Positions 32,728-58,869 of a stretch of DNA of 64,000 nt are shown one piece after another. Both the position numbers and the translations under genes were made by a program. Source of the stretch: Gaertneriomyces semiglobifer. Taxonomy: Eukaryota > Chytridiomycota > Chytridiomycetes > Spizellomycetales > Spizellomycetaceae. Positions within the stretch are counted from its first letter, which is position 1. Every line of letters begins with the position of its first letter. Location of the stretch: positions 62,001 to 126,000 of the forward strand of contig JAHLKF010000031.1 of NCBI GenBank assembly GCA_025558075.1, given 5' to 3'. The notes below the pieces were generated by a model. The model ran no database searches. It was not told the origin of the DNA and saw only the letters and a list, made by a program, of their open reading frames with translations.

Positions 32728-32730
32728 TGT

Positions 32731-33231: not shown

Positions 33232-33828
33232 ACTGTGGCAAGAACGGTTAAATGATTAGGGTTACCCTTAATGGTTACCCTTAAAATGTGCACATATATA
33301 TATATTTAACAGTTATACATTCACTTTATACATTCACTTTATACATCCACTTTATATCATAGCAAACGTTACATGCCCTAATGGCCTCTAACCCCTAAAT
33401 CAAATCCAACCGTTATCCCTGTAAACGTTAGTTAGCGCGTAACCGTTAACTGCTCGTAACGACTAAACACTCACCATCTTTTATCGAGCGGTTCTTTCTT
33501 GTTGACCATTCATCTCTCCATCATTTATCGAGCGGCACTGTGACAATAACGGTTAAATGATTAGGGTTACCCTTAATGGTTACCTTTAAAACGCGCACCT
33601 ATATATATTTAACAGTTGTATATTCACTTTATACATTCACTTTATATCATAGCAAACGTTACATATTCTTATACCCTCTAACCCCTAAATCAAATCCAAC
33701 GGTTATCGCTGTAAACGTTAGTTAGCGCGTAACCGCTAACTGCTCGTAACGATTAAAACACTCACCATCTTTTATCGAGCGATTCTTTCTTGTTGACCAT
33801 TCATCTCTCCATCATTTATCAAGCGGCA
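33232..33828. repeat. two tandem subterminal units (305-bp offset)
   Basis: Unit 1 (33232-33536) and unit 2 (33537-33828) share ACTGTGRCAAKAACGG, AGGGTTACCC, iterated ATACATTCACTTT words and TTTATCGAGCGG. Unit 1 has additional TACATTCACTTTA copies. The same pair lies inverted at 58261-58869. Each begins with the ACTGTG-type tip seen at the start of element B. Confidence 0.9.
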
Positions 33829-33887
33829 CGGCTGGTGCATTTGACCGTACAGTTGCTTCTTTCGCGCAGACCATTGACACCTTCGTT

Positions 33888-33942
33888 GTCACAGTGCACC
33901 ACAATCTGATGGTCTGACCACCAGATTGTGGTGCACTGTGAC
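33888..33942. repeat. 55-bp palindrome in left TIR
   Basis: Tips GTCACAGTGCACC / GGTGCACTGTGAC with 27-bp arms and one mismatch (A in the left arm, position about 33910). The right arm tip (33934 onward, CACTGTGACAGTGG) is exactly the point where homology to element B begins at 61055. Confidence 0.9.
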
Positions 33943-34164
33943 AGTGGCGTTGAACCCTAACACTTACCACCACTTGGTTGCCACCACCAAGCCGTTTGGC
34001 TGCCACCACCAAGCCGATAGAAGCGGTCACGTGACCTCACAGGACGTCATTGGAGCGTCATGTGGTCGTTCATACATCTTCACGACATCTTCTAATACAT
34101 CGATTGAAGAATCGTTGAAGAAACCGGCATACAGTATCTCTGCATCCTTCACGGCAGCGTTTTT

Positions 34165-34760
34165 GATCTCCTATTTTGTCAGAATTGGAAACTGTTGATA
34201 CAATATACTATCTGCAAGTTTCCAATCTTCAAAATAGGAGATCAATAAGCTTGATGGGATACTTTGAAAGAAACTTGGATAAGTACTCGAGAGGAAACTG
34301 ATATGTTTTCCCCACTTTTTGGAAACGTTCTACCCGGCTACAGCTTCTCGGTTAAGTGTCTAGTACAAAAGGCTACATAGGCTACAAGCGTCATACAACA
34401 TTCATGTAGCCCTTGTAGCCCTTGGAGTCTTCAGGCAAACGCGCTTCTCGTGTAGCCTCTCGACGACAACTTTGTCACCGTTCCTCAATATACATGTTGC
34501 CCGCGCTTCCCGTCGCGACACTGGATTTCCTCCTTACATCCTTTATGAACCGTCACAAAAAGTTTCCATTCGTCCTCGCAGTAGCTTTTCAGTCTTCCTT
34601 TTGAGGAAATTGGAAACTGTTGATACATATATACAATCAACAGTTTCCAAAAGTAAGATAAAGGGAGAAGAAAAAAGCTTGACGGGATACTTTCAAAGGA
34701 AACTTGGATAGATATCCGAGCGGAAACTGATATGTTTTCTCCACTTTTTGGAAACGTTCT
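34165..34760. promoter_or_regulatory. duplicated GGAAAC hairpin module, candidate replication origin
   Basis: Two modules, each with an inverted repeat (TTGGAAACTGTTGAT...ATCAACAGTTTCCAA in the inner one, 34611-34650; a nested GATCTCCTATTTTG...CAAAATAGGAGATC in the outer one, 34166-34245), then AAGCTTGAYGGGATACTTT, GGAAACTTGGATA and GAAACTGATATGTTTTCYCC plus TTTTTGGAAACGTTCT. The GGAAAC word recurs about six times per module. Such iterons near both ends, in an element with an origin-binding-type helicase, suggest origin function; this is inference. Confidence 0.4.
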
Positions 34761-34819
34761 TGGGTGGGTGCGTCCAAGTTTTTGTTATCTCTGATGTTTT
34801 CACCGATCTCATGTAAAAG

Positions 34820-35293
34820 ATGTTTCCATTGGAAATCCTTCACATGATCTTGAATGAAAGACATCGTCTCATGCATCATGAAGACTTTCAGAAACGACGG
34901 CAAGTTGTGAAGGCAAACCTCAAATTCCCATTGAGGTATTTTATGTCTCAACGCATTCGTTTCAACCCATCCGGGACGAACACGGAGCTTTATTACAGTG
35001 TGGGAGAGCATCACCAATGGGAAATTTTCCATCATAGTGGATACCATGAAAGCATCATCCGACATTCATTCATTAGTCAAAAACATTTTCGAAAGCGCCG
35101 CGTCTTAATTGTGTACGAAAACGATATTCATGTGAATGGTATGGGAGAGGAGTTTTTACATAACACCATGAATATCACGGACTTGAACAGAAGAGAAGGT
35201 CATATTCTCACACTCTCCTGTGACGCAGAACCTGATGATTGGGCATGGTCCTTAGGAATGTATTATAAAAGGAAACCACGTAAAACAAAATGA
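34820..35293 (+). CDS. hypothetical 157-residue protein at left end of element A
   Basis: Starts 60 bp inside the TIR boundary and runs toward the convergent fibre gene. Basic, with a His/Arg-rich N-terminus and a C-terminus ending RKPRKTK. An overlapping leftward frame (35065-34637) runs into the TIR and is less convincing. No family recognised; possibly an early gene driven from the TIR. Confidence 0.4.
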   Translation: MFPLEILHMILNERHRLMHHEDFQKRRQVVKANLKFPLRYFMSQRIRFNPSGTNTELYYSVGEHHQWEIFHHSGYHESIIRHSFISQKHFRKRRVLIVYENDIHVNGMGEEFLHNTMNITDLNRREGHILTLSCDAEPDDWAWSLGMYYKRKPRKTK

Positions 35294-35353
35294 TTTCTTC
35301 CACTTCAATGTTATCAAGCTTTCTCAATTTCTGAATTTGTAACCCAACAGAAT

Positions 35354-36673
35354 CTACAAAGGTGCAATATGATAGATGATCAACCGAGATGCCGGACTAC
35401 CTGTTATACCGCCAGAGGAACTTGCAGATGTGAAGCGAAGTATCAATTTGGTATCTGCTTCTACGACACGGCATATTGATGAACCTGTTACTCTGTGACC
35501 GGCAACCATACTGTGTTTTCTTACATGATAACCATCTTCGTAATACACGGTGCTACTAGGAACCATAAAACCAAAGTAGGAATTGATATTGCCTGAGGCA
35601 GACTGGAACACATCTAGATCAAATTCGATCTTGTATATTCCCGGTAATTTAATGACGATGTCTTGCGAATTCATTGAACAAGTAATTGTATCGCTTTCCA
35701 TACCAAAAGAGGGTGTCCATTTGGTTATTAACTGATAGACAGTACTATTCACAGAGAACGATTGACTCGAATGTAATTGAAACATTCCATACGCTGGAGC
35801 GGTCAAACTGAGACCATTCACCTTTGCAGATGGAGCATCTATGATCTTCTGTGTGGCATTGGATCCATAAAACGTCAGTTTCCCAATATGACCATATGTA
35901 CCAAAAATCAGGTTCCGAATGATGAACCTAAAGACTTTAAATTTCTTCGTAATGTAGTTCTTGAAGGGCACATACCGATTTACAGATGTTGAATTTTGAT
36001 GGATCGTATATGTCATTTTTCCAGAGTTGATCTCTGTCCAAGTGTTCCGATCATCAGATCCGCAAATAATGTAGTCTTTGGGAAATGAAGGCATTTCAGG
36101 TGTTCTAGCCTCAAATGAAAAAGCAGTAATCGCAATCGCTTCAGGCATCTCAAGTTCCACATATTCTCCCTTGATGTTTGTGCCATCTACAGAGGTTTGA
36201 ACGGTGCCCTGATAGAGGTTCTGTTCGCCACCACTATATGTTGATGCAGACCAATAAGAGTCATTGATTTGCAATGAGTTGGAGAAGGCTTTCCATCCTG
36301 CAGACGTTCCATTCAAGTTACTACTGGCATTGGCAATATACCCTTGAGTAGTTGCACCGGTCATGGGTATTTGGGGATATCTTATTGGACTGGCAATGTC
36401 ATCCTTGAATTCGACACTGTTGTCAATTGAGAGATCACCAAAGATTTTGTTAACTTTCAGGGCTTCAACATTCAAAACCTTCTTCAATGACCCACCTGTG
36501 TATTTCAGGGAATAGATCTGAGCATACTTTCCAGCCGATTCGCCTTGAATGGATCTAGTAATAAACCTGTACGACTTATGACTGACTCGAGTAGTTACTG
36601 GGACATTCAATTCACAAATGGAACCATTGCTTGGTGCGGTGCTCCAGTCCAGTGTACCAGAGGTGACTGTTTC
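35354..36673 (-). CDS. C-terminal part of the fibre, in frame after an amber codon
   Basis: This continues the frame of the fibre gene without interruption apart from a TAG at 36674-36676. It holds the second half of one discoidin (F5/8C)-like repeat, a third full repeat (about 36390-35850: YPQIPMTGATT ... GEYVELEMPEAI ... DYIICGSDD ... FKVFRFIIRN), then a C-terminal beta-rich head of about 140 residues resembling a C1q/TNF-type trimeric jelly roll. Without read-through the particle would lack this head. An internal ATG at 36610 could start a separate protein but would begin mid-domain. Confidence 0.65.
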   Translation of the reverse strand, partial: ETVTSGTLDWSTAPSNGSICELNVPVTTRVSHKSYRFITRSIQGESAGKYAQIYSLKYTGGSLKKVLNVEALKVNKIFGDLSIDNSVEFKDDIASPIRYPQIPMTGATTQGYIANASSNLNGTSAGWKAFSNSLQINDSYWSASTYSGGEQNLYQGTVQTSVDGTNIKGEYVELEMPEAIAITAFSFEARTPEMPSFPKDYIICGSDDRNTWTEINSGKMTYTIHQNSTSVNRYVPFKNYITKKFKVFRFIIRNLIFGTYGHIGKLTFYGSNATQKIIDAPSAKVNGLSLTAPAYGMFQLHSSQSFSVNSTVYQLITKWTPSFGMESDTITCSMNSQDIVIKLPGIYKIEFDLDVFQSASGNINSYFGFMVPSSTVYYEDGYHVRKHSMVAGHRVTGSSICRVVEADTKLILRFTSASSSGGITGSPASRLIIYHIAPL

Positions 36674-39600
36674 CTATGAAGAACCGTCACTACTCCCTGC
36701 AATGATAAACTCTTTGACATTATAGGAATCGCCTGATATTGGTTCTGCGATATAGAAGGACGTCAGAGCAATAGCAGTTTGCATGTCCAATTGTAGATAC
36801 TCCCCTAGAACGGCTGATCCATCCACTGTTGTGGAAACACTCCCAATATACAAGTACGGTGCTGTGCTTGAATAAACGCTTGCAGCAGAAAACCAAGTAT
36901 TGTTATTGTCCGGAGCGTAAGGATTGTAAACCTTCCAGCCCGTCCAAGTTCCCGAATATACCCTTGATGAAGTGGCAGTGTATTGTCCTGTTGTAGCGGC
37001 AGTCATGGGAATGTCAGGGTAAACGGAAGTGGTAGGGATGTCATCTTGCAAACCGAGACCATCCATCTGCACATCACCAGAACATATCAAGTTCTCGGTC
37101 AGGATCTCCTTTGTAGATAGCGTACCGTTGATCTGCACTGCTGTAGGAACGCCATTAAAAATCAATCTATAAACATCTGAGAACCCACCATTGTGGTGGA
37201 CGGATTGCACAATGAGTCGAAGTATTTTGAATGACTTGTTTGATGAAACTGTAAAAGATAAGGTTTGTTCTGCATCGGCACCCCATGTCGCTGTTGAAGA
37301 CATCAGCATTGTGAATGTGGTTCCATCGTTAGATCCGGCAAGTACAATGTCTTTGATAAAACGTGATTGTCGAATAGAAATGTCAAAAGAGGTCAATTTC
37401 ACATCAAGAGGCATTTCCAACTGCAACCACTCTCCACTTACACTTGTTGCATCAGCGACCGTAACAGCAGACCCAATGTAGTTATATGGTGCAGTTGTGC
37501 TGTATTTTGAGTTTGCCGACATCCATGCCCAGTTGGTAGCATTGACATTGGTAAAAGCCATATAAGGTAAATATCCATTATTTGAACTAGCACTGGCTGT
37601 ATACACACCATTCCCATATGGTCGAGCGGAAACTGTAGTCGCATTGCTTGTCAAATTTACAGGAGGAAATGCAACAATGTTGGTGTTGTTGGTTCCAACA
37701 GAGAGACGTTGAGAAATGTCTACGCTACCTGTATCATCAATCACAATACCGCCAGTTTCGGTCTTGGTTAGCAACCTCAATGCACCTGCATAACACTGAA
37801 TCGTTCCAGTATTAATCCCACCATACACTCCTCGACCAGCGCTGTTAATATGCAGGTATAAGCCCTGCGTACCACCAGCACGCAGGTGCAAAGAAGTACA
37901 TGAATTGGATGCTGCCGACTGGTTGTTCAACACATGGGCAAACGTAGTGTTTGCGTTCTTTGTTGCTGTAAACGTGCCTCCTATCGAAATATTCCCTGTT
38001 CCGGACATGTTTCCTCCAAATGAAATTCCTCCTACAGTCGCCAAAGAATCTACACTGACTGCTGGGTTCAATGACACCGTGTTTTCACTGAAGAGCAGCC
38101 CGCTTCCATAAGTGACGGTTGCTGGAACATTGATTAGATTAGTCGCATAATCGACCTTATCCTTGTAAGCCAATCCTTTAAGTGCTGTTTTTGTTTCGTA
38201 TACGGTTAAATCCAGTTTTCCTGAGACTTCAGTGATCCAAGATACGCTCGATTTTGAAGCGAGGGCGCCCAGTGTTGGTTTCGAAGTAATCTCAGTCCAA
38301 CTCAAAGAGTCCTTGTAAGCGAGAGCCTTGTGATTGCTCTTTACCTCGAAGGCACCGAGATCTGAACCCAGAGATATTGTGCTCCCCATTTTCACTAACC
38401 CTGTTCCTACAGTGATGTAGGAAATGCTGTCTACGTATGTCTTTGTTGTAAGATCGGTAGGCTTGTTTATGATATCTGTTCCATTCCAATCCAGTGTATT
38501 CTTGCTCGATAAGGTTCCAAGAGTCGGTCTAGAGGTCACTTCTGTCCAGGCAATGCTGTTCTTTGCTGCCAATGACCCAAGTGTAGGGCGTCCTGTCAAA
38601 TCATTGTATGCAAGAGTGTCCTTGAACGCAAGAGCCTTTAATGAACTTAGATCCTCACTCAGGGACAGTGTATTACCAGTCTTGACAAGCCCTTGTCCGA
38701 CATTGACGTAGTTGATGCTCTCAATATATGGAAGAATATAGGACTCGTACGCTTGATAGATCATTGCAAGGTTCGGAACAGTTGAAGGGTGTTCTTGAAG
38801 GATCCCGCCTTGATTGATGAATCCGCTTTGCAGGTGGCGGTCGTGTGTGAGGATGGCAGTAGAAACGCGATTATCATCTGTACGTCGTAGTATGATATCA
38901 AGGTGACCCGGTGTTGTGATAGGGATTCCATTCTGATCATACTCCAAGATAGACCGTGTGAATCCTTCCTCGGTAACCTCAGTTTGAATTTCCTCTGACC
39001 AACGACGGCCCCAGGAATCGACAAAAGTAGTGCGTTCTCCCCTGGAATCCCGGTTCTTAAGGATTGGAGGAACACCATTAAGGCATAATCCACCACCTCC
39101 ACCACCTCCTCCACCACCTCCACCACCTCCACCAATTTTACCAGTATTTGTGAGATTGGTCGGGTCGATGGGATCAGTGGGTGGTAATATCGGGTCTTCA
39201 AGGTCAGGTAGTCCTCCTGTCAATTCACCAGTTGTTCCTCCTCCTCCTCCCCCTCCTCCTCCACCGCCACCTTCACCATCTCCTCCCCCTCCTCCTCCCC
39301 CTCCTTCATCATCTCCACCATTGTACGTATCCTTCAAGGTACCCTCTGTTCCTTTGTTGGTTGGGTTGACTGGTGCAGTTGGTTTGGTCATGAGCGGAGC
39401 ACTTGTGTTTGTAATCGTCACAATTCCAGTAACGGGATCTTGAGCCGCGATTACACCGATTCCAACGACCCCACGAACAACTGGGAGAGACGCATAGGCT
39501 GTTACCACACTGTCGAGCCCAGTGACCTGCCCAGCCAATGATGTAGCGATTCCTTGCAAACTTGTTACATCGACCTTCATAACAGCATTCGCAACCTGAA

Positions 39601-41230
39601 TTGCAGATTGAGCAGTTTGGATTGTTCCAAGTAACTCAGTAGTGCCTGTCAAATCGGCTGCAAGGTTGATAAGGTCACCCCGCATTTGCTGTTTTGCAAT
39701 GTCCAAATTGTTGATGTTCGACCTGTTTAGATCAACACCATCTGAAAGAAGGTCGCTTTTTGTCTCTTGTTGCTGCACTCGACTCTCAACCGCATCGATC
39801 TTGTTATCCAGTCGTATATCCTCATTCTCTAAATCATTCAGTTTGTTATCTGTTTCCGTCTTGTTGTCGGTTACTTTGTCTTCAAGATCGTCCAATTGAG
39901 TTTGGTTGTTTGTGACTGAGATAGCATAGGAGAAGGGATTTGTCTGGGTAACAGTTACGTTCGAAGAAGCACTGAGAACTGTTTTCCCGATCACTTGATC
40001 GCCTTCACGTCTCAGACTACCTCCATATGTGAGTGAAGACGACACCACATTGTCGGCGATTGATATGCCATCTCCCCCAGTGTATGGATCAACACTCAAC
40101 TTGTTATTCACGGCTTTAACCAAAGTGCCGTCAACGAGGCTGCTGACATTAATACCGAGTCGATTGTTTTCGTCGATGGAGAGTGTCTCATCATGGTTGA
40201 CCTTGATCAACTTGCGTCCATTGACTACTTCGGAGATGTCAATACCGCTTCCTGCCTGCGATTGGTATAGTTGATGAACATAGCTGGCAGTTGGTAACTG
40301 TCGAGGTTCGGCGATGCTGTAGTCAACGGCTTCGGCCTTGAACCTTGGTGCCGTCAGAGTCGATAAGGTTTCATTGTAGGTAAAACGATTTGAGGAGTTA
40401 AATCCGCTAAGGCTTCCAAAAAAAGGGATTTCATTAAGACCTTTACTTCTTATCGCCAATCGTGAACCAGTCTGTTGAAAGTCATCAGAGACGTTCAACT
40501 TGACAAGGGTAGCATTTCCAATGTTCTCTTCCATGTCTACAGGCAAATCCGGAATGTCGATCCAATCCCCAACACCTGGGAGGATCTCGTCCATTGCTGA
40601 ATAAACACTTATTGCTCCGATGCCCTTCGACATCTCCTTCTGATCAACTCCCAATTTGCCATCCTTGACCATAAGTGGAGAGTCAATGTTCAGATGAATT
40701 TCATTGGCTTCATTCCTTTCCAAAGGAGTTTCGAACGTATCTCGAACTGAAGAAAGAATTCCTTCGCTTGTAACAACAAGCGAATCGTCTGTGAACAATG
40801 TCAGACCATCTTCCGTCACCCCCAAAGGATAAGCATTTTGTAATGAGAGAACAACCTCCCCCTCTTCATTTTCCTGGACACCCAGAGGGAATTCTGCCGC
40901 CATACGTTTCGAGGCAAGCGAGCCATCCTCCTTTATCAGCATCGTCGAATCGTCTATCTTTATTGAAACGTGTGAAAGCCCGTTTTCATCAGTGGATTTC
41001 AAAGGTTCTTCATAGATAGGTTGAATGGTTTCGATGGTATAGTGACCATCATCCTTATCCAAACGAATATGTGGATCTTCTGTATCCAAATCCAAAATAC
41101 TGACTATACCACTTCTATTTGATAACTCGTCACCATGAATAGTATCTGCTCTCACATTTCCGGCCTTGAGTTTGTCTACGACCTCAAAATTGCGACGTAC
41201 AGTGTACGAACCTTGAATCGAATTGGGCAT
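36674..41230 (-). CDS. giant modular fibre / receptor-binding protein
   Basis: 1,518 residues to a TAG, 1,958 codons if read through. Domains in order: short N-terminal anchor; residues about 70-300, repeats of the form PLGVTEDGLTLF / SPLMVKDGKLGV that resemble the triple-beta-spiral shaft of adenovirus-type fibres; about 440-510, a coiled coil; about 640-665 and 700-716, two poly-Gly tracts; about 850-1040, phage-fibre-like repeats (W-x-x-I-x-x-KPTLG-x-LA-x-K); about 1200-1360 and 1410 onward, discoidin-like repeats (WLQLEMP ... IVLAGSNDGTTF). A long trimeric virion spike that binds host surface glycans or proteins is the natural reading. Poly-Gly tracts are encoded by CCACCACCT-type minisatellites and may vary in length. 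Confidence 0.75.
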   Translation of the reverse strand: MPNSIQGSYTVRRNFEVVDKLKAGNVRADTIHGDELSNRSGIVSILDLDTEDPHIRLDKDDGHYTIETIQPIYEEPLKSTDENGLSHVSIKIDDSTMLIKEDGSLASKRMAAEFPLGVQENEEGEVVLSLQNAYPLGVTEDGLTLFTDDSLVVTSEGILSSVRDTFETPLERNEANEIHLNIDSPLMVKDGKLGVDQKEMSKGIGAISVYSAMDEILPGVGDWIDIPDLPVDMEENIGNATLVKLNVSDDFQQTGSRLAIRSKGLNEIPFFGSLSGFNSSNRFTYNETLSTLTAPRFKAEAVDYSIAEPRQLPTASYVHQLYQSQAGSGIDISEVVNGRKLIKVNHDETLSIDENNRLGINVSSLVDGTLVKAVNNKLSVDPYTGGDGISIADNVVSSSLTYGGSLRREGDQVIGKTVLSASSNVTVTQTNPFSYAISVTNNQTQLDDLEDKVTDNKTETDNKLNDLENEDIRLDNKIDAVESRVQQQETKSDLLSDGVDLNRSNINNLDIAKQQMRGDLINLAADLTGTTELLGTIQTAQSAIQVANAVMKVDVTSLQGIATSLAGQVTGLDSVVTAYASLPVVRGVVGIGVIAAQDPVTGIVTITNTSAPLMTKPTAPVNPTNKGTEGTLKDTYNGGDDEGGGGGGGGDGEGGGGGGGGGGGGTTGELTGGLPDLEDPILPPTDPIDPTNLTNTGKIGGGGGGGGGGGGGGGLCLNGVPPILKNRDSRGERTTFVDSWGRRWSEEIQTEVTEEGFTRSILEYDQNGIPITTPGHLDIILRRTDDNRVSTAILTHDRHLQSGFINQGGILQEHPSTVPNLAMIYQAYESYILPYIESINYVNVGQGLVKTGNTLSLSEDLSSLKALAFKDTLAYNDLTGRPTLGSLAAKNSIAWTEVTSRPTLGTLSSKNTLDWNGTDIINKPTDLTTKTYVDSISYITVGTGLVKMGSTISLGSDLGAFEVKSNHKALAYKDSLSWTEITSKPTLGALASKSSVSWITEVSGKLDLTVYETKTALKGLAYKDKVDYATNLINVPATVTYGSGLLFSENTVSLNPAVSVDSLATVGGISFGGNMSGTGNISIGGTFTATKNANTTFAHVLNNQSAASNSCTSLHLRAGGTQGLYLHINSAGRGVYGGINTGTIQCYAGALRLLTKTETGGIVIDDTGSVDISQRLSVGTNNTNIVAFPPVNLTSNATTVSARPYGNGVYTASASSNNGYLPYMAFTNVNATNWAWMSANSKYSTTAPYNYIGSAVTVADATSVSGEWLQLEMPLDVKLTSFDISIRQSRFIKDIVLAGSNDGTTFTMLMSSTATWGADAEQTLSFTVSSNKSFKILRLIVQSVHHNGGFSDVYRLIFNGVPTAVQINGTLSTKEILTENLICSGDVQMDGLGLQDDIPTTSVYPDIPMTAATTGQYTATSSRVYSGTWTGWKVYNPYAPDNNNTWFSAASVYSSTAPYLYIGSVSTTVDGSAVLGEYLQLDMQTAIALTSFYIAEPISGDSYNVKEFIIAGSSDGSS

Positions 41231-41278
41231 ATTTCTATATAGCTTACATTTTTCTTTTGGTGATGCGGCTTCGGAGAT

Positions 41279-42028
41279 TCAGATGATGTCATCCAAGAAG
41301 GAGCGTATATACCCCAGCCGGGATTGGTCGTTCAGCGACCGGCATGGTTGTGTTTTTGATACATCTGGTGACGATGTCTTCATAGAAGCCTTCATCGATG
41401 TTATCTTCTTCTTCTTCTTATTTTTCTCAGGGATGTAATCCTCATCCTTTTCTTCATAGGAATCATCGGAATCAGCTTCTTCATCGATGTCATAGTAGGC
41501 CCTTCGTCGAGGGATAGGAGTTGGTTTCCGTTTTCTGTTTTTGCTTGAGGTTGGCAGGGATACAGGTTGTTTCCCTGTTTTCCTAGTGATAGGTTTTTCA
41601 AGACGCATCATCTCTTTCAAGATACGTGCTTCGATGCTAAGTTCTTGTTGTCTTAGTTTTTCTGCTTCATGCAGGATACGTTCGTCTTCCATTCGTCTCT
41701 TCTCAGCCTCCTTTTCGGCTTTACGTTTTGCTGCTAACTCTTGACGTACCTGTAGAGCCTTCTCACGTGTTTTCTCCAGATGCGCTTTCTGCTTTTCTGA
41801 AGCGACTCTTTTCTTCTTTACTTCTTTTTCATCAGCAGAAGCAATTTGAGAAGACTCTTTGCTAGTGACCTTGCATGAATCGGCTCTACGCTCGGAGTAG
41901 CGATTCACGAGTTCTTGAATGTAGTCGTTTTCAGCACCCTCATCTTCACTCTCCTCATCTTCAGGATGAACCTCTTCAGATGAGTATTGTGGTTCTTCTT
42001 GCACTGGATGAGCCTTACGCGGTGGCAT
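41279..42028 (-). CDS. charged coiled-coil protein of element A
   Basis: 249 residues. An acidic N-terminus (residues 1-45) precedes a long Lys/Glu/Arg-rich single helix (about 75-150, EKQKAHLEKTREKALQV), a basic patch with KNRKRKP and PIPRRR, then an acidic stretch and a Lys run (KNKKKKK). It lies 48 bp upstream of the fibre gene in the same direction. It could be a scaffold, core or tegument-like protein; no family recognised. Confidence 0.55.
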   Translation of the reverse strand: MPPRKAHPVQEEPQYSSEEVHPEDEESEDEGAENDYIQELVNRYSERRADSCKVTSKESSQIASADEKEVKKKRVASEKQKAHLEKTREKALQVRQELAAKRKAEKEAEKRRMEDERILHEAEKLRQQELSIEARILKEMMRLEKPITRKTGKQPVSLPTSSKNRKRKPTPIPRRRAYYDIDEEADSDDSYEEKDEDYIPEKNKKKKKITSMKASMKTSSPDVSKTQPCRSLNDQSRLGYIRSFLDDII

Positions 42029-43044: not shown

Positions 43045-43068
43045 TTCATTAGTATGCATATAAAAAAG
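43045..43068. promoter_or_regulatory. 24-bp divergent start region with TATA-like box
   Basis: Start codons of two divergent genes are only 24 bases apart, and between them lies TATGCATATAAAAAAG. Either the promoters overlap the opposite gene or one of the starts lies further in. Confidence 0.4.
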
Positions 43069-43299
43069 ATGAGTAGCCAAGAACGTACCCAGAAGATTCG
43101 GGAACGCCTACGAAAGAAACTAAATGATCGGATTCAAAGTGCCATTGAGCCATCACCACCCCTTGATCAGTCTACATGTGAACTTGAGCCATTGACAACC
43201 AATGTCTTTACAAGAGATGACATCATTCCAGACGATGATCCAAATGATTTTGTGATCATTCCTGAAGAGGATGCCGGATGGGATACACTCTTAGCGTAA
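43069..43299 (+). CDS. small hypothetical protein of element A
   Basis: 76 residues from MSSQERTQK; an in-frame ATG 33 bases earlier is possible but overlaps the opposite gene. A basic helical N-terminus (RERLRKKLNDR) is followed by a Pro-rich and then strongly acidic C-terminus (DDDPNDFVIIPEEDAG). Its end overlaps the end of the convergent gene by 9 bases. Function unknown. Confidence 0.45.
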   Translation: MSSQERTQKIRERLRKKLNDRIQSAIEPSPPLDQSTCELEPLTTNVFTRDDIIPDDDPNDFVIIPEEDAGWDTLLA

Positions 43300-51100: not shown

Positions 51101-52205
51101 TGACTTGCTTATTGATGAGATCTCACAAATCCCGTCTTATCTGTGGAATATGATTGCTGTCTACAAGCGAAAAGGATGTCGAGTGTTTCTCTTTGGTGAC
51201 TCTTATCAGTTACCTCCAGTGGAACCTACTGAAGATATATACTCCCAAGACTATCTCGAAACAAATGCGGTAAGTGACATTGCGGATGGCAACTTTGTTG
51301 TACTTACTGAAAACCATCGCTTCACTAGTGACCCATCTAACCGTATGCACGAAGTAGTAGACGCTATTCAAGCAAATGATTTCGAGAAGCATCTCTCTGA
51401 ACTCTATGTCGATGATGTTACATGGCGGTCATACAAGATGAACATTGCCTTCACCAACCGAATGTGTCATCACATTAACAAGTTGCACATGGAGCACGAT
51501 GGACAAATTGCTCAGAAAAACAGGAAGAAAATACTCTTTTCACCAAAGATCGAAAAGGATCGAAAGTCACAAGATTGCTCCTTTGTCAAAGGATCTCCTG
51601 TGATTGTTCGTAAAGGCTTCTCTTCAAAAGGTGTTAAGGTTATCAAGATGACACGATGGTATGTTGTTGACTGGGACGACAGAAATGTGAAATGTTGCAC
51701 CGATCATGGCTCAACATGTAGTGTCTCTCGCAAGAACTTTCAAAAGTTCTTCTTGTCAGGGTATTGCACTACAGTTCACAAAGCACAAGGTCAAACATTC
51801 AAACAACATTTTGTGATTCATAAAGTCTCCAAAATGACTAAGAAGATGTTGTACACTGCGGTAAGTAGGTCATCTCATAGTAAGTACGTCCATTTTTCAA
51901 AAATTCAGTTGAAGGATCAAATGAGTGATCCATCTTTCATTGCTTATCTCAGGCAACGGTTTGCACATGTTGAAGGTTGCACCTTTGAAGAGTTCCTCCG
52001 ATATATTCAAGATTCTTTGAACAAATCTCAATACTTAAAGGGTATGTCTTGGAACAACTACGGTTGGGACTTTGAAATTGATCACATTGTTCCACAAGCA
52101 GAAGGTGGATCAGATCACTACACAAACTTAGCACCTTTGGATATTTCCGAAAACAGACGAAAGCAAAAGCGACACGATGACGTGTTATTGAACAAGACTC
52201 TTTGA
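48165..52205 (+). CDS. replicase fusion: cysteine-protease-like region, family B polymerase, SF1 helicase, HNH nuclease
   Basis: 1,346 residues. Residues 1-180: charged helical region. About 300-420: protease-like pattern with Cys304 (TGRCAVNAV) and His408 (YNNHFSIITD), resembling OTU-type folds. About 610-850: polymerase motifs, A-like AIDKPKCYQSS (Asp623), B-like KILINSMIGLIGK (about 729), C-like VKTDCIVV (Asp839); motif C is degenerate compared with DTDS and no exonuclease motifs are obvious. About 910-1240: SF1B (Pif1/RecD-like) helicase with GAGHGKS, LLIDEIS, GDSYQLPPVE, VHKAQGQTF and TAVSRS. About 1300-1335: HNH nuclease, EIDHIVPQAEGG...NLAPL...N. Polymerase and helicase presumably copy the genome in cis. 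A TATTTAAG box lies near 48105. No frameshift. Confidence 0.75.
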   Translation: MPLILDPINNKNVHEGSKPYKTLMNKVANGNFSRRGWSRLRKEALEDIMIDHLPLYLAEQQEKRKTDAKRAADARTPAQRAAIAQRATATRQQRKADEDACIALAVQERLQKDKEAAAKKAAKTRKASRLPPQSWSLQWVHLLYWCEYNDRPFYRERNYTEGDRFEKSKDHRYHQVQAVRAEKGSEWMPAIAERQDDFENEREDNKDAHFRESLSAQNPHVFNNVRGNMTTEMAKALIDKHKREEGMLFHADSDKYTNDFIILETFVLSCVNISTGTPLEHMMLFDEAQDGKDIRPEHIPTGRCAVNAVRVAWGYGFDRAQRKGSKEILDDAWLISTLGLTSLDEGMNLSHIQTLSTKLGRIGFGAPYYCIDLEKDFVACHSCSEDWQKRTSIRWVLPALYGFIYNNHFSIITDQDLQKSLCERSKSHEMKADSVDTLFARKNDGKCDEEAKEQQYFVMVTTNRWDLVLEKILEMDSHETNCIFILEECDEYHQLESLFLSYVQTHRRIPDIKIHVTSTGEARIQCIMLPSKNHITLDQDFQTRRTICEKLDIDFRNQSKPSISAFVFNEFYPNLKKSMMSPKLMDLFNTFTKPSIFYGNFIGATPREVYQEMIANNELVAIDKPKCYQSSWYEMPLDFPVFSIFDDTELYCADKSKNGTAAGWYYIETENVIPCEGNGWYSNVILKKCRDEKIPHEVTHMIIASRRIKHDYFRSYIDMVVSKTGKDAKILINSMIGLIGKRFTKDHLSTLFVSGIDEGIHYFNKFQLEKQWMPTIAQKFSKDLHGVDLYQVTAARTVTDMNTHRPIRKQIIDYANCLLYDMIKNTVGHISKVVSVKTDCIVVKKGDVFIGNLYKYRIEDRLPEVHKPLNLPRSTRTVATDDPFPNRVELKILKGQDGAKMLLDAVKGQSCRIQAGAGHGKSHLLKGLKSHLEDQQREVLVLAPTNCAAFNIDGKTIHKGLKISPDDDVSHLKHRKRPDDLLIDEISQIPSYLWNMIAVYKRKGCRVFLFGDSYQLPPVEPTEDIYSQDYLETNAVSDIADGNFVVLTENHRFTSDPSNRMHEVVDAIQANDFEKHLSELYVDDVTWRSYKMNIAFTNRMCHHINKLHMEHDGQIAQKNRKKILFSPKIEKDRKSQDCSFVKGSPVIVRKGFSSKGVKVIKMTRWYVVDWDDRNVKCCTDHGSTCSVSRKNFQKFFLSGYCTTVHKAQGQTFKQHFVIHKVSKMTKKMLYTAVSRSSHSKYVHFSKIQLKDQMSDPSFIAYLRQRFAHVEGCTFEEFLRYIQDSLNKSQYLKGMSWNNYGWDFEIDHIVPQAEGGSDHYTNLAPLDISENRRKQKRHDDVLLNKTL

Positions 52206-52242
52206 ATCAGATCCTGCTTTTTTTGTAGATGCATAACAAAGA

Positions 52243-53394
52243 ATGGAAGAACTTCGCGCACTGTACTATTCGCCTGGGGCACCTTCTTCAGCAAGTGGGC
52301 TACAAAAGCTCTTGAAGAAGAAGAAAGGTGTCAATTTGACACTGACGACCATCAAAAAGTTTCTTGAAGGTGAAAGGTCGCATCAGATTCATCATAAGAA
52401 GAAGCGACTGAACCTGAATGTCACAAGAACATTTGCTCCATTCGATGTATGGGAAAGCGACTGCTTAGCACTGGGACAAGATGCTCACTCGAAACAAAAT
52501 CATGGTTTTGCACATATACTAGTCTGTGTTGACCGTTTCTCTAAAATGGTATGGACTCATCCCTTGAAACGTCTAGATGAACATAGTGTAACAAAAGCCA
52601 TGCAGACAATCCTAGATCAATCCCTTGAAACATATAAGATGCGTCCAAATCATTTAGTGACCGACGCTGGTGGTGCATACGTGTCAAAAACCTTCTCAAA
52701 TCTCATGAATGATTATGCTATTACCCACAAGATAACATATATGGCTCATCAAGCGGAACGTATGATCAAATCACTCAAGGGGGCTATCGGGCGAATTCTT
52801 ACACATCGAAAGGACAACAAGTGGAGTGATGTACTTCCCGACCTGACGGATACAGTCAATGATACAGATCATCGTGGGATTGGAATGTCATCAAAAGAGG
52901 CAATTGAGCAGCCACATAAAGCGCTTGAAAATCTCGGAAAATACTGGAAGAGCATACATCAAGTTGAGCCGGAAGTATTCTCGGCTGGTGATCATGTGAG
53001 AATTCGACATGAAGGAAATGTGTTCCGCAAACCCCATTGCGAGGTCTTCTCAAGCGATGTATACACCATCCAAAACGTGCTGAAACCTAGCAACGCTTTA
53101 CAATCGACAAAGTATGCCATCAAAGGTATACCGAACCGAGTTTTCAATTATAACGATCTCATTCGAACAGACGAGCCAGCAACTGTGATCTCAAGGAAAC
53201 CACAGATAGATCGGTTTCAAAAACAAGCCGCCCGCGAATTGGCGGATCTTTGTGACCTTGTTCGTCAGGATACTATCCTTCCCCAAAAGTTGAGGTCGCA
53301 GCGGAAGAGCAAGAAGATCTCGCTCAAACGCATTCGTCCTAAGAATCAATTCCTTTATGTGGACATTCCTGTGAAAAAGAAGATTCCGCGATAA
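52243..53394 (+). CDS. rve-family (retroviral-type DDE) integrase
   Basis: 383 residues. The N-terminus (LYYSPGAPSSASGLQKLL) is the helical segment typical of Polinton integrases. The catalytic core has Asp73 (WESD), Asp141 (VTDAGGAY) and Glu172 (AERMIKSLKGAIGR), followed by an SH3-like part (SAGDHVRIRHEG...YTIQNVL) and a basic tail. Only 30 residues separate the second Asp from Glu, not the usual 35; residues just before AER look deleted. This may weaken or reshape the active site. It would join element ends to host DNA. Confidence 0.85.
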   Translation: MEELRALYYSPGAPSSASGLQKLLKKKKGVNLTLTTIKKFLEGERSHQIHHKKKRLNLNVTRTFAPFDVWESDCLALGQDAHSKQNHGFAHILVCVDRFSKMVWTHPLKRLDEHSVTKAMQTILDQSLETYKMRPNHLVTDAGGAYVSKTFSNLMNDYAITHKITYMAHQAERMIKSLKGAIGRILTHRKDNKWSDVLPDLTDTVNDTDHRGIGMSSKEAIEQPHKALENLGKYWKSIHQVEPEVFSAGDHVRIRHEGNVFRKPHCEVFSSDVYTIQNVLKPSNALQSTKYAIKGIPNRVFNYNDLIRTDEPATVISRKPQIDRFQKQAARELADLCDLVRQDTILPQKLRSQRKSKKISLKRIRPKNQFLYVDIPVKKKIPR

Positions 53395-53591
53395 CGCACT
53401 TGCGGCGACTAGACGATGTAGGCAAAAGAAAAGCGGTAAGTGCGCGAGCTTTACATCCTCACCTTCTTATCAAGGGAATCCGACATTTCCATTCTCTATA
53501 TGCACCTAGTCCATAGGCAACAAAACGTGGCTATTTAAAGAAAAGGACATATCTAGTTTTTTAACACAAAGTTTACAAAGTTTGTAGTTTT
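53395..53591. promoter_or_regulatory. promoter region of the SF2 helicase
   Basis: Contains CTATTTAAAGAAAAGG at about 53532-53547, a TATA-like box about 50 bases before the ATG at 53592, followed by AT-rich sequence with ACAAAGTTTACAAAGTTTGTAG. Confidence 0.45.
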
Positions 53592-56084
53592 ATGGTTTTT
53601 CTCCAGCTCTCTACATCGCTCTACATAAATTCAAAATCCGATTTTTTCCGAAAATTGCCCATAGGAATAAGTAGGCAGAGAAAGCCTCCTGCTCGGCCGT
53701 TCTGGCACCCTCTGCAGCACTTGGAACTACCTGCTCCTGCCAAAAAGCGCAAGTACACCAGGAAAGACACTGCAAACGCGTCCAATTCAAAACCGAAGAA
53801 GAAAGTGGATGATTACATTATCGAGCTCCCGCGTATGGAATTAGAGTGTGCAGACGGCTTCTCTTACCATAAGGCGACACCGGATGAACAACTCCCTGCC
53901 ATGCCCAATCCTCCTCGGTACGACAAGTTTCAGTTATACCATACATACAATCGCCGAGTGCTCGCCTGGTGTAAGCACGTCGGTCTCACCTTTGAAGATT
54001 TCTGGGAGTGGTGCAAGCAAAAGGACGATAGCCCTGATCGAAAATCCAGGTACAGCCGCATATGGAAGGATGCGGATGTCGACAAGTACCCACCCAAGGA
54101 TAACTTTATGAAGGCATCGTTGGCAGTGGTGTACAAGAACATTCAAAAGCATCATCCGGTCAAGCAGATGCTCCAATCATTGAACAAGACATTTGACCTC
54201 GACATCAATCGTCGCTTCCTCCGTGTGGACGATCTGATTTCCCACCAGGATAAACGATGCATCCTCCTTCAACTCCCGACCGGTAGTGGAAAGTCACAGG
54301 CTGTTCTCGAGTTGCTGAAGTGGTACAGTGAGAAGAACCCCAACCATCGCATTCTTTGGTTGACATGTCGTATCACTTTGACCAACGACCAGAGGACACG
54401 TCTCAGAGATACTACGGCACTTCCTTGGATATTTTACTTGGATGCACATGGATCCGCCAAGAAGGAATTGATGAAGAAATCGAATCCTCAGCACTTTGTG
54501 TGCTCCGTCCAGTCTGCATACATGATAAACAAGCCTTATGATCTTGTCATCATGGATGAATCCGAAACACTATTGAGGAGTTTTGAAGGCGAAGCAAAAT
54601 GTCACAAACGTGGTTCAAAGGACCGACGTCTCCTTCACTGGAAAATCTTGGAGACGACCATTACAAACGCCAAACAGACCATCTGGATGGACGCTTTGTT
54701 GACCAATGCCAGTATCCCTCTTGCTCAAGATCTCTGCGGGGAGGTTTTCAAGATAGGTGCTCAACCATACCATGTCCCTCAACGTAACGCGATCCGGGTC
54801 AAGTCAGAGCCAGATTTCTTCAACAAAATCCAGGTAGCCTTGCAGAATGGTGAAAAGCTATTCATTTGTACGGGGAACAAGGGATCCACCACTCCTGACA
54901 GCGAATGCTTCCTATCTGTTGAAGGAATCTACTCGACCATCATGCGTATGTTCCCTAATTGGGAGTATGGGAAACAGATTTTGAGATATTATGCGGATCG
55001 CAAAGATGAAAAAGAAGGATTGCGAGAAGTCTTGTCTGCTTGGGGGCATCCTGATATACGTGTAGTGATTGGGAATTCATCACTCGCTGTGGGAGTCAAC
55101 TATGACCCAACGCCAGAACAACAAAAAGACTACAGGCTCTTTGACAAGGTATTGGTTGTACTTCAGCCGCCAGCTCTATCACCTCGGGACTCTACTCAAG
55201 TTGTGGGATGTGTGAGGAAAACCACAACCAACGAGATCTACTACCTTGCCACTCGCGGTACCACAGGAGCAGATTTCTATCACAATGATGGGCTTGCTGA
55301 TTCACTCTCTCAGCTGTCGCCTGCGTATGCCCACCTGAGGAAGAACATGAGGACAGAAACTTTGGTATCTTCATGCAAAGGATACATGACCATTGTCCGT
55401 GAGATGTTCCTCATGAACAATATTGTCATGGCAAAGGATGACATTGAAGCTATCATTGAAGAGGACGAAGAAGAAAAGGCAAACGAGTTCTGCAATACCG
55501 ACTTGAGTATGTACCGTTGGAAGAACATTGGAGACATTACCGAAGATGAAAAGAAAAAGATTCTTCAACTCGTGGTCTACCAGGATGCAACCATCACACA
55601 AATACTCAAACTATACAAGTACAATTTCTGGGAACGGTTTATACCCATTGAGGAGGACTTGTACGAACTGTACTGGGACAGGTTCAAACCATGTGCTGAT
55701 CAACTACACATGATAGGCATCACCAGACGCAAAGACAAAGATCTCCCTGAAGAACATCAATACAAGATGAAACTTGCAGCTCGACACTTGTGCAAGTTGT
55801 TCCAAGAGAATAATGTGGATATTATGAATCCGGACAAGTTCAAGATTACCAAGAACTTCAAGTGGAGTGTTCAACTGCATGAGATCAAACGTATCTTTGA
55901 CTTTTTATCGCGTCCGCCAACAACTCTTAGGATGGATCTGTTCGCCAAAGTCTTGAATACAGCGTTCGGGACCGAGTTAGTGTACAAAGACTTTCCCAAC
56001 GAAAAGAATCGAAAGTACTACGAATGGAAAACCAAATACTTTCCTTGTGATCCTCACCATATTCGATCTTTGGAAGAACTTTAG
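53592..56084 (+). CDS. SF2 helicase resembling origin-binding proteins
   Basis: 830 residues. A basic, Pro/Lys-rich N-terminus with a nuclear-localisation-like KKRKYTRK (about 51-58). Helicase motifs: I LPTGSGKS (Lys234), Ia ILWLTCRITLTNDQ, II VIMDESETLL (Asp322, DESE rather than DEAD), and VI-like VVGCVRKTTTNEIYY. DE(S/A)E with a long C-terminal domain is the arrangement of the herpesvirus UL9-type origin-binding helicases and relatives. It probably opens the replication origin or remodels ends. The C-terminal third recurs nearly unchanged in element B. Confidence 0.7.
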   Translation: MVFLQLSTSLYINSKSDFFRKLPIGISRQRKPPARPFWHPLQHLELPAPAKKRKYTRKDTANASNSKPKKKVDDYIIELPRMELECADGFSYHKATPDEQLPAMPNPPRYDKFQLYHTYNRRVLAWCKHVGLTFEDFWEWCKQKDDSPDRKSRYSRIWKDADVDKYPPKDNFMKASLAVVYKNIQKHHPVKQMLQSLNKTFDLDINRRFLRVDDLISHQDKRCILLQLPTGSGKSQAVLELLKWYSEKNPNHRILWLTCRITLTNDQRTRLRDTTALPWIFYLDAHGSAKKELMKKSNPQHFVCSVQSAYMINKPYDLVIMDESETLLRSFEGEAKCHKRGSKDRRLLHWKILETTITNAKQTIWMDALLTNASIPLAQDLCGEVFKIGAQPYHVPQRNAIRVKSEPDFFNKIQVALQNGEKLFICTGNKGSTTPDSECFLSVEGIYSTIMRMFPNWEYGKQILRYYADRKDEKEGLREVLSAWGHPDIRVVIGNSSLAVGVNYDPTPEQQKDYRLFDKVLVVLQPPALSPRDSTQVVGCVRKTTTNEIYYLATRGTTGADFYHNDGLADSLSQLSPAYAHLRKNMRTETLVSSCKGYMTIVREMFLMNNIVMAKDDIEAIIEEDEEEKANEFCNTDLSMYRWKNIGDITEDEKKKILQLVVYQDATITQILKLYKYNFWERFIPIEEDLYELYWDRFKPCADQLHMIGITRRKDKDLPEEHQYKMKLAARHLCKLFQENNVDIMNPDKFKITKNFKWSVQLHEIKRIFDFLSRPPTTLRMDLFAKVLNTAFGTELVYKDFPNEKNRKYYEWKTKYFPCDPHHIRSLEEL

Positions 56085-56227
56085 CACTTTTATCCATTGT
56101 TCGATCGATGAAAAAGGTTATTCGATTAAAGGTAAACGTCATATTTTTTTCAAAGCTTGTATATAAAGACAAATATATTTTCGCCTTCAGATTGTTGTCC
56201 ACCTCCATCCGTATCTCATTCTCCAAA

Positions 56228-57244
56228 ATGGACCGCGAAAGTATCAAAGGTATTCTCGAAGCCAATTTGAACGCGACTAGCGTCGAGATCAAGAAGCGCG
56301 CCAAGTACCTTTTAGCTATCCTCAATGAGGGTCTGCTTGACGATCTTTACAATGTGGAGGTGCAGGACTTGGCTAAGCGGTTGTTTGATCGGACGCAAGA
56401 TCCTCGCAAAGGTAGAAATTCAACCATGGAGAATGTCGTCAAGTCTCATCTAGGTTATGTTTGTACGCTGCTTTCTACTGACATTCCTGGATTCAAAGAC
56501 GACGAGGTACGTCAACAGTACGTTCTGAAAATCAGGTCATACCAGGATAGTTTCGCTCCAAAGCATCGCAAGGAGGGAAAGTTCTCCAACAAGGAGAAGG
56601 AGGCGTTGGACAATGCTGAAGTGGATATTGAGACATTTGAGAAACTGTTTGAAACAGTCAAGACACTTACTGAAGACATGCTCCAGATGCTGCAGAACAA
56701 TGTTTCTTTGGACAAAGAACAGTTGTTGAATCTGCAATTGGTTATCATATTGAATCTGCTGTTGAATGAACCAAATGTTCGTTTGAGTCCATATGCAAAG
56801 TTGAAATTTGATGGGAACTGTCTGGATGACAACATTATTGTTTTTGAAGGACATGAGATGGGTAAGATTGTACTGATCTTCAACACTGTCAAAACGGTGG
56901 GTGTCCCAATCATCCTTTCAGTGTCGAATGAACCGTTGAAAAAGATGATGCACGCGTACTTTGATCGCTACCGGAAAGACCACAAGGACCATAGATACTT
57001 GTTCCAGAAGAAGACCAAGCGTCCTTTTTCAGCTGATGAACTTCAAAAAGGAATCAATCAGTTGCTTCGTAAGCACTTTGCAGATGGATTGACTTCAAGG
57101 CTGATCCGTATTATCGAAACCATCACTTCCTATGAAACTGACAAGCAGTTCAGCTACCGCGAGTTGGAGATGATGTCCTTTGCACGCAATCACTCTATCA
57201 AAGAGGGACACTTGTATAATCGTACCAAGCGTAGCAATGTCTAG
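56228..57244 (+). CDS. predicted tyrosine recombinase
   Basis: 338 residues from MDRESIKG; a longer frame begins at 56108 but a TATATAAAG box lies at 56159-56167, inside that extension. The C-terminal half fits tyrosine recombinases: ILNLLLNEPNVRLSPYAKLKF (Arg185, compare PPRRxDY in viral members), FNTVKT (Lys222), YLF...PFSADEL, SRLIR (Arg294), and ARNHSIKEGHLYNR (His322, Tyr330; eight residues apart). It lies next to the right TIR. It could integrate or excise the element or resolve its ends, which is striking because an rve integrase is also present. Copy B differs at only a few residues. Confidence 0.55.
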   Translation: MDRESIKGILEANLNATSVEIKKRAKYLLAILNEGLLDDLYNVEVQDLAKRLFDRTQDPRKGRNSTMENVVKSHLGYVCTLLSTDIPGFKDDEVRQQYVLKIRSYQDSFAPKHRKEGKFSNKEKEALDNAEVDIETFEKLFETVKTLTEDMLQMLQNNVSLDKEQLLNLQLVIILNLLLNEPNVRLSPYAKLKFDGNCLDDNIIVFEGHEMGKIVLIFNTVKTVGVPIILSVSNEPLKKMMHAYFDRYRKDHKDHRYLFQKKTKRPFSADELQKGINQLLRKHFADGLTSRLIRIIETITSYETDKQFSYRELEMMSFARNHSIKEGHLYNRTKRSNV

Positions 57245-57340
57245 TTTCAGTCCTATTGTTTTGTATGTAAAGTTTGTTGTTTCGTCAAGTAATATGAGCT
57301 TTTGTTTTACATGATCTGCTGTCCAATGGCATCCCGCGCG

Positions 57341-58869
57341 AGAACGTTTCCAAAAAGTGGAGAAAACATATCAGTTTCCGCTCGGATATCTATCCAAGTT
57401 TCCTTTGAAAGTATCCCGTCAAGCTTTTTTCTTCTCCCTTTATCTTACTTTTGGAAACTGTTGATTGTATATATGTATCAACAGTTTCCAATTTCCTCAA
57501 AGGGGAGACTGAAAAGCTACTGCGAGGACGAATGGAAACGTTTTGTGACGGTTCATAAAGGATGTAAGGAGGAAATCCAGTGTCGCGACGGGAAGCGCGG
57601 GCAACATGTATATTGAGGAACGGTGACAAAGTTGTCGTCGAGAGGCTACACGGGAAGCGCGTTTGCCTGAAGACTCCAAGGGCTACAAGGGCTACATGAA
57701 TGTTGTATGACGCTTGTAGCCTATGTAGCCTTTTGTACTAGACACTTAACCGAGAAGCTGTAGCCAGGTAGAACGTTTCCAAAAAGTGGGGAAAACATAT
57801 CAGTTTCCTCTCGAGTACTTATCCAAGTTTCTTTCAAGGTATCCCGTCAAGCTTATTGATCTCCTATTTTAAAGATTGGAAACTTGCAGATAGTATATTG
57901 TATCAAAAGTTTCCAATTCTGACAAAATAGGAGATCAAAAACGCTGCCGTGAAGGATGCAGAGATACTGTATGACGGTTTCTTCAACGATTCTTCAATCG
58001 ATGTATTAGAAAATGTCGTGAAGATGTATGAACGACCACATGACGCTCCAATGACGTCCTGTGAGGTCACATGACCGCTTCTATCGGCTTGGTGGTGGCA
58101 GCCAAACGGCTTGGTGGTGGCAACCAAGTGGTGGTAAGTGTTAGGGTTCACTGCCACTGTCACAGTGCACCACAATCTGGTGGTCAGACCACCAGATTGT
58201 GGTGCACTGTGACAACGAAGGTGTCAATGGTCTGGGCGAAAGAAGCAACTGTACGATCAAATGCACCACCCGCGCCGCTCGATAAATGATGGAGAGATAA
58301 ATGGTCAACAAGAAAGAATCGCTCGATAAAAGATGGTGAGTGTTTTAATCGTTACGAGCAGTTAGCGGTTACGCGCTAACTAACGTTTACAGCGATAACC
58401 GTTGGATTTGATTTAGGGGTTAGAGGGTATAAGAATATGTAACGTTTGCTATGATATAAAGTGAATGTATAAAGTGAATATACAACTGTTAAATATATAT
58501 AGGTGCGCGTTTTAAAGGTAACCATTAAGGGTAACCCTAATCATTTAACCGTTATTGTCACAGTGCCACTCGATAAATGATGGAGAGATGAATGGTCAAC
58601 AAGAAAGAACCGCTCGATAAAAGATGGTGAGTGTTTAGTCGTTACGAGCAGTTAACGGTTACGCGCTAACTAACGTTTACAGGGATAACGGTTGGATTTG
58701 ATTTAGGGGTTAGAGGCCATTAGGGCATGTAACGTTTGCTATGATATAAAGTGGATGTATAAAGTGAATGTATAAAGTGAATGTATAACTGTTAAATATA
58801 TATATATGTGCACATTTTAAGGGTAACCATTAAGGGTAACCCTAATCATTTAACCGTTCTTGCCACAGT
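57341..58869. repeat. right terminal inverted repeat of element A
   Basis: Reverse complement of 33232-34760, same length. Contains the same order of parts mirrored: GGAAAC modules (about 57341-57497 and 57772-57925), 55-bp palindrome, two tandem subterminal units. The inner junction AGAACGTTTCC|GCGCGGGATGCC is shared with element B but not with the left end, so the left end lost or differs in the adjoining sequence. Confidence 0.95.
58159..58213. repeat. 55-bp palindrome in right TIR (perfect)
   Basis: Arms of 27 bp around one central base, tips GTCACAGTGCACC / GGTGCACTGTGAC. The left-TIR copy has one mismatch, so this copy is the better-preserved one. Confidence 0.92.

Follow-up and report, generated by a model that had tools for sequence, protein, structure and literature searches.

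The DNA considered here (the window) is a stretch of 64,000 nucleotides from the chytrid Gaertneriomyces semiglobifer, C31:62,001-126,000 of a 20.9-Mb, 66-contig assembly; coordinates are window positions unless a contig is named. Positions 33,232-58,869 hold an integrated Polinton-like virus (PLV), termed E1, which is probably a composite of two PLVs and partly decayed. A core of one lineage, which starts within the fibre gene and extends as far as the integrase, is enclosed by the ends of a second lineage resident in the genome. The donated ends are, on the left, the terminal inverted repeat (TIR) and the C-terminus of the fibre and, on the right, a helicase, the protein p378 and the other TIR. 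E1 is thus an ordinary PLV whose composition misleads, and its termini are the part worth following. Judged only by its genes, a composite provirus can pass for a new lineage, which is a trap for classification based on gene sharing.

Three further elements in the genome have ends like those of E1: E2 (C31:123,054-146,922), E3 (C38:38,781-62,205) and E4 (C11:376,481-399,824). Because the related E3 and E4 extend as far as a 57-nt palindrome and are bordered there by exact 5-bp target duplications (CTCGT and ACCGT, respectively), the virus proper is taken to occupy 33,887-58,214. This is 24.3 kb, within the PLV size range of 14-40 kb. An extent to 33,232/58,869, the 25.6 kb of an initial annotation, is rejected on the same grounds, the remainder being an inverted duplication of flanking DNA. 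The long inverted repeats reported in that annotation are present: the full arms (32,774-34,768 and 57,333-59,327, 98% identity) extend past the virus ends, where they cover 57 nt, two ~300-nt units and a long terminal repeat (LTR), to 32,774/59,327. The flank sequence is found also to the right of E2 and, the LTR part excepted, at no further place among the matches listed. The GC content is 0.43 in E1 as against 0.507 in the left surroundings (window 1-32,000). That a PLV resides in a fungal genome, as the initial annotation proposed, is supported by the PLV gene set, the TIRs and the size.

The evidence that E1 is composite comes from its ends and its core genes. On the left, E1 and E2 are 99.1% identical over 33,232-37,582 and remain 98-100% identical on to ~37,850; from there to ~40,700, within the fibre gene, the identity drops to 70-90% in alignable blocks. 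On the right, 53,720-58,168 is 99.0% identical between E1 and E2 and 93% identical to E3 and E4, and the proteins encoded there (helicase and p378) are 94-99% identical in E2, E3 and E4. Relatives of the core proteins in E2-E4, at an E-value threshold of 1e-3, are distant: 31-35% for the penton candidate (to a 244-aa protein adjoining the ATPase), 26-27% for the ATPase and 18-22% for the integrase. At the same threshold the capsid candidate, the polymerase, p103, p172, p249 and p337 have no relative in E2-E4. The gene set of the other elements includes a D5-type primase-helicase (E3 and E4) and an rve integrase with a chromodomain (E3). Judged by protein similarity, the E1 core stems from a lineage that is represented in other chytrids as well. 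The features of E1 are as follows (ORF, open reading frame).

33,232-33,886, no strand: flank outside the virus, two ~300-nt units plus 57 nt
33,887-33,943, no strand: terminal palindrome of the left end, 57 nt, with a single mismatch between its arms
33,887-34,768, plus strand: left TIR, 882 nt, 98.0% identical to the right TIR
34,820-35,293, plus strand: 157-aa ORF beside the left TIR, with ORFs of equal size in the corresponding position of E2, E3 and E4
35,357-36,610, minus strand: C-terminal fibre segment resembling F5/8 type C, a 418-aa ORF in the frame of the fibre ORF, behind a stop
36,677-41,230, minus strand: fibre-like protein, 1,518 aa, containing the left recombination junction
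41,282-42,028, minus strand: p249, lysine/glutamate-rich, core
42,070-43,080, minus strand: p337, core
43,294-43,602, minus strand: p103, core
43,651-44,325, minus strand: penton (minor capsid) candidate, 225 aa, probable natural start in another frame
44,417-45,106, plus strand: A32-like packaging ATPase
45,148-46,491, plus strand: major capsid candidate, 448 aa
47,088-47,603, plus strand: p172, acidic/serine-rich
48,165-52,202, plus strand: replicase, 1,346 aa, with PolB-like motifs (by eye), an SF1 helicase of Pif1/RecD/Dda type and a C-terminal HNH
52,243-53,391, plus strand: rve (DDE) integrase (Pfam)
53,437-53,719, plus strand: 3' half of an LTR that is present whole at C21:305,709-306,273
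53,720-56,081, plus strand: ori-binding-type helicase of the E2/E3/E4 family, 5'-truncated (1,017 aa in E3 and E4)
56,108-57,241, plus strand: p378, orphan, with motifs that only to the eye resemble those of tyrosine recombinases
57,333-58,214, minus strand: right TIR
58,158-58,214, no strand: terminal palindrome of the right end, 57 nt, arms without mismatch
58,215-58,869, no strand: inverted copy of the left flank, outside the virus

The right join is formed by the LTR piece, which sits between the integrase and the helicase, reaches to 53,719 and provides the first ~43 codons of an 830-aa ORF. The first 45 residues of this ORF match C21:305,703-305,837 at 87%. Its helicase is of the ResIII type (Pfam) and is ~230 residues short relative to E3 and E4. 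The segments 53,437-53,720 and 32,273-32,554, the latter to the left of E1, are adjoining halves of one 565-nt repeat on C21, which starts TGTTG, ends GCAGCA, is preceded by a purine tract and adjoins an ORF. We take this ORF to be a copia RNase H; a Pfam search of it gave no match. The left exchange would have taken place in homologous fibre sequence and the right join would have come about through the piece of LTR retrotransposon that cuts the helicase. A clean swap of cores between two viruses was also considered, and was weakened once the LTR fragment turned up at the right join. Exchange between chromosomal copies appears to be the simplest account.

The initial annotation called the element complete-looking. 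This is too strong, because the fibre is split by a stop, the start of the penton gene is displaced and the helicase is cut by the LTR. The 1,518-aa and 418-aa ORFs of the fibre are a single frame with a stop between them, and in E2 a stop is likewise present at the corresponding position. The 225-aa penton ORF begins with GTG and lacks a likely start of its own; a start lies upstream at 44,365 (MKKLILASNR) in a different frame, so that either a frameshift or an intron is suspected.

Much of the gene content that had been proposed for E1 is confirmed. The packaging ATPase matches Pox_A32 above the Pfam cut-off (E 2.8e-8) and the integrase matches rve (E 3.3e-11); helicase motifs are present both in the SF1 domain of the replicase and in the second helicase, and the giant fibre corresponds to the 1,518-aa protein. 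Relatives of the ATPase are numerous in the genome (35 matched stretches, roughly 30 loci), and a tblastn search of it against phages gave no match. In contrast to the ATPase, the 448-aa capsid candidate has a single match in the G. semiglobifer genome. A wider protein search with it returned 12 proteins including itself, nine of them from Spizellomyces punctatus, Powellomyces hirtus and Geranomyces variabilis; the S. punctatus proteins SPPG_07208 and SPPG_05487 are 72% and 58% identical. The replicase has relatives in the same three species (33-54%) and in Gaertneriomyces sp. JEL0708 (85%). One relative of its polymerase in P. hirtus, P0020, continues into the N-terminus of an integrase, the same polymerase-integrase neighbourhood as in E1, and the capsid relative P0004 and the polymerase relative P0017 are probably on one 10,796-base contig. 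The PolB-like motifs of the replicase were recognised by eye; there was no Pfam PolB match and no PDB polymerase match, and a genome search with PF03175 (protein-primed PolB) found no place inside E1. A more distant replicase fusion (24%) is encoded on the IMG/VR contig L089 (IMGVR_UViG_3300011339_000889), together with a capsid-like protein and an adenain-like (adenovirus-type) protease. This contig links the PolB-like/SF1 helicase fusion to relatives that bear a protease. No protease of the Ulp1/adenain type was found in the 11 ORFs of E1 scanned with Pfam (p249, p172 and the 157-aa ORF lay outside the scan); the same library detects Peptidase_C5 in L089.

The termini of E1 belong to a wider set. 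Palindromes ending PLVs of several lineages in this genome share the tip TGTCAYAGTSCR, and their interiors are lineage-specific, with lengths of 49, 52, 53, 56, 57 and 66 nt according to class. For a single arm, the genome has 70 copies of TGTCACAGTGCA compared with 12 for the reversed control, and 236 compared with 73 when one mismatch is allowed. With so many control matches to the single-arm motif at one mismatch, it is the paired pattern that carries the argument. This pattern, TGTCAYAGTSCR-N18-42-YGSACTRTGACA, has 45 sites in the genome and none in the control. By reading of the flanks, 11 of these are solo palindromes and 34 are not, the latter counting C40:72,523, whose context is not established; the solo set rises to 12 when C46:31,863, which fits a looser pattern only, is added. 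Within the window there are only four palindromes with arms of at least 20 nt (at most one mismatch, loop 0-8), all of the PLV-end family, and three shuffles gave none. The palindrome of E1 also ends E3 on both sides and E2 and E4 on the right. Elements belonging to several of the palindrome classes contain D5_N or have it close by. A search of IMG/VR with the exact palindrome patterns gave no matches.

Target duplications lie outside some of these palindromes. By eye, exact 5-bp duplications are present in five of the eight elements for which both junctions were seen: E3 and E4, as given above, two elements on C21 (CCGTG and AACGG) and one on C35 (ACGAT), where the left duplication lies past an inverted flank copy. 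A sixth element, C6:678,337-702,586, has a 4-bp duplication. Among the 12 solo palindromes, six have exact 5-bp duplications; 100,000 re-pairings gave 0.58 on average and 5 at most. The two sets differ in their arms: these are perfectly paired at 27 of 32 non-solo sites (the two of E1 left out) and at two of 12 solo sites, with two or more mismatches in the other 10 solo copies. One solo palindrome lies in the window ~10 kb from E1 (23,672-23,717); it is a perfect palindrome of 46 nt between exact 5-bp duplications (GCGGT) and is likely the scar of a lost provirus.

It is tempting to ask how such elements would operate. Judged by homology, particles would be made by the products of the capsid, penton and ATPase genes. 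The rve integrase may join the TG...CA ends to the target, producing the 5-bp duplications that are observed, and the constant tip of the palindromes would then be the end on which the integrase acts. By their sequence the terminal palindromes are able to fold back. There is a reasonable, if somewhat less than even, chance that they fold the genome ends into hairpins, which would solve the problem of end replication in the absence of a protein-primed polymerase. A provirus may be deleted when its two palindromes recombine, which would leave the solo palindromes that are seen. In more general form, we tentatively propose that chytrid PLVs of several lineages have linear genomes with hairpin telomeres, in which the tip would be constant and the interior could change so long as it stayed paired. 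If the proposal is correct, the strategy of end replication differs from the protein-primed ends of Polintons, and the solo palindromes are a fossil trace in the host genome. At elements whose genes differ greatly, the tip is the same and the interiors diverge yet stay paired, which offers a direct and simple test. Solo palindromes also provide a means of following past integrations in fungal genomes. p378 had been considered as an enzyme acting on the palindromes of all resident PLVs, and this is rejected: within the genome it is limited to E1-E4, unlike the rve integrases, which are in or near other resident elements too. A search of 5.8 billion proteins with p378 gave one match, the G. semiglobifer copy on the E4 contig, and Pfam gave no match to a tyrosine recombinase family.

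Four other readings of E1 and its termini were weighed. The initial annotation regarded it as a complete and distinct PLV lineage, in which a fused replicase, an extra helicase and a second recombinase had evolved together. The TIRs and palindromes of both sides do match each other, and most ORFs are long and open, but we consider this the least probable account: the ends are 99% identical to those of a PLV with a different core, the helicase ORF starts inside an LTR fragment, and p378 has no relatives outside E1-E4 in the searches made, whereas the replicase has them in four named chytrids. Nor do the grounds given for a distinct lineage hold. PLVs typically have no protease according to Yutin 2015 (PMC4642659, main text), the fused replicase occurs at 33-85% in those four other chytrids and at 24% in L089, and the added helicase and putative recombinase make up the right end of a second PLV family in this genome, joined on via the LTR fragment. 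That E1 is an artefact of assembly, fusing two neighbours that lie 2.8 kb apart and have long repeats of 98-99% identity in common, is also very improbable, given that divergence at the left junction is graded and that the LTR piece at the right join has no counterpart in those parts of E2, E3 and E4 that were compared. A truly chimeric virus, arising from PLVs that recombined during co-infection or co-replication and integrated afterwards, with the LTR gained before or after, is unlikely, though less so. It accounts for matching ends with both palindromes around a nearly full core, and a fibre tip common to co-resident PLVs would agree with selection for one and the same host. However, the retrotransposon at the right join and the loss of ~230 helicase residues are better explained by exchange between chromosomal copies; it is because the right join is an LTR piece cutting the helicase that recombination between chromosomal proviruses is favoured over a replicating chimera. 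The remaining alternative concerns the palindromes, which instead of hairpin ends might be paired integrase-binding sites or small palindromic transposons at the ends of PLVs. This is doubtful but credible. Solo palindromes with 5-bp target duplications (six of 12) would be expected of it, and the constant tip with TG...CA ends resembles an integrase site; on the other hand, class-specific interiors that are almost perfectly paired over 49-66 nt go far past the size of a binding site, and at least two arm mismatches occur in 10 of 12 solo copies while 27 of the 32 others have none.

Several observations weigh against the interpretation of E1 as a composite PLV with functional termini of this kind. 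The composite reading does not account for the position of the two LTR halves at 32,273-32,554 and 53,437-53,719. The gradation at the left junction means that more than one exchange may have occurred, and in a repeat-rich contig some details of the fibre, flanks and junctions could be assembly faults. No target duplication is visible by eye at E1, or at E2, and the left-end palindromes of E2 and E4 are reduced, that of E4 having collapsed to ~9 nt. The assignment of the capsid gene is also affected. Pfam and PDB searches of the 448-aa protein gave nothing significant, and its predicted structure is poor (mean pLDDT 39.8). As to the jelly-roll fold expected of it in the initial annotation, the nearest folds of the model are double-jelly-roll proteins, but the matches are weak (Z 5.3 and below). 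For the penton candidate, an hhalign comparison with an environmental candidate was not significant.

The structural matches of the capsid candidate are mixed, ranks 9-13 and many others among the best 50 listed being adhesins, transglutaminases and the like, and the best 50 include no capsid of a virophage, Polinton or PLV; the model nevertheless leans towards a double jelly-roll. A PDB profile search with the capsid alignment gave no matches, and hhalign of this alignment against the capsid candidate of E2/E3 gave a probability of 0.8%, the latter alignment consisting of two distinct rows. IMG/VR held no relative of the capsid candidate, of the E2/E3-type capsid candidate or of the helicase.

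PLVs of S. punctatus and PLV genes in Allomyces have already been published (Bellas and Sommaruga 2021, PMC7805220, main text). The S. punctatus group likewise comprises PLVs integrated in a chytrid of the Spizellomycetales, and the capsid relatives SPPG_07208 and SPPG_05487 may belong to the published element; 'palindrom' and 'hairpin' are both absent from the main text of that paper. PLVs in general have a capsid, penton and ATPase module and TIRs and no protease, and some have an rve integrase and 5-6-bp duplications, as set out in the main texts of PMC4642659 and PMC12220804. E1 shares with them the ATPase, the TIRs and the rve integrase and has candidates for the capsid and penton, again with no protease found; it differs in its probable composite make-up, in which an LTR piece forms the right join, and in its long terminal palindromes with a shared tip. 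The string 'palindrom' does not occur in the main texts of Yutin 2015 (PMC4642659) or the 2025 cryptophyte survey (PMC12220804), nor 'hairpin' in that of the latter. Titles and the openings of abstracts among the papers listed in literature searches, a coverage that takes in neither subscription papers nor preprints, yielded no description of palindromic or hairpin ends in PLVs.

Comparisons can also be made further afield. Polintons/Mavericks likewise have an rve integrase, TIRs and an ATPase, and their capsid has a candidate counterpart in E1; in contrast to them, no protein-primed PolB was recognised and no protease was found in E1. Poxviruses and phage N15 with its TelN are linear replicons with hairpin ends. 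Long palindromes lie at their genome ends, as in PLVs of the E1 type, and a D5-type primase-helicase occurs in several of the palindrome-ended PLVs here as well. Unlike those replicons, the palindromes here are at the ends of integrated proviruses, next to target duplications, and a hairpin is suggested by their sequence. Solo LTRs of retrotransposons are single terminal repeats left between target duplications; the solo palindromes have the same layout, the repeat here being a 46-65-nt palindrome of a DNA virus.

Some smaller observations complete the description. Rfam and tRNA scans of the window gave no matches. The DNA of the 157-aa ORF stretch is 89-99% identical in E2, E3 and E4. E2, which begins at window position 61,054, 2.8 kb past E1, has another core, and its helicase and fibre are broken over several frames. 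In the replicase, a Cys at ~304 (GRC) and a His at ~408 (NHF) are conserved and might recall OTU/papain-like proteases. The central base of odd-length palindromes is A or T and differs between them, which could reflect hairpin flip-flop; one base is too little to go on. To the left of E1, 32,728-33,231 contains a palindrome of the PLV-end family with the interior GTCGTGTTATG..., split by a solo LTR (32,774-33,231) with a 4-bp duplication (ACTG). On the other side, 58,870-60,978 is a retrotransposon LTR with an internal part, with many copies in the genome, which mirrors the solo LTR across E1. In the PLV at C35:89,658-117,148, a 1,943-nt span of the right flank is repeated in inverted form at the left, between a half and a whole palindrome; over the 1,444 nt compared the copies are 100% identical, the same oddity as in the flanks of E1. 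Genes for PolB (PF03175) are present in PLV flanks ~7 kb outside the palindrome at C47:30,827-32,395, and similarly on C2, C19, C30, C34, C39 and C59, and are possibly part of another mobile element. Finally, C19, C30, C34, C39 and C47 carry near-identical PLVs with a common flank, and these contigs end 14,788 bases past the palindrome start (14,750 for C2), which looks like a subtelomeric position or an assembly limit.

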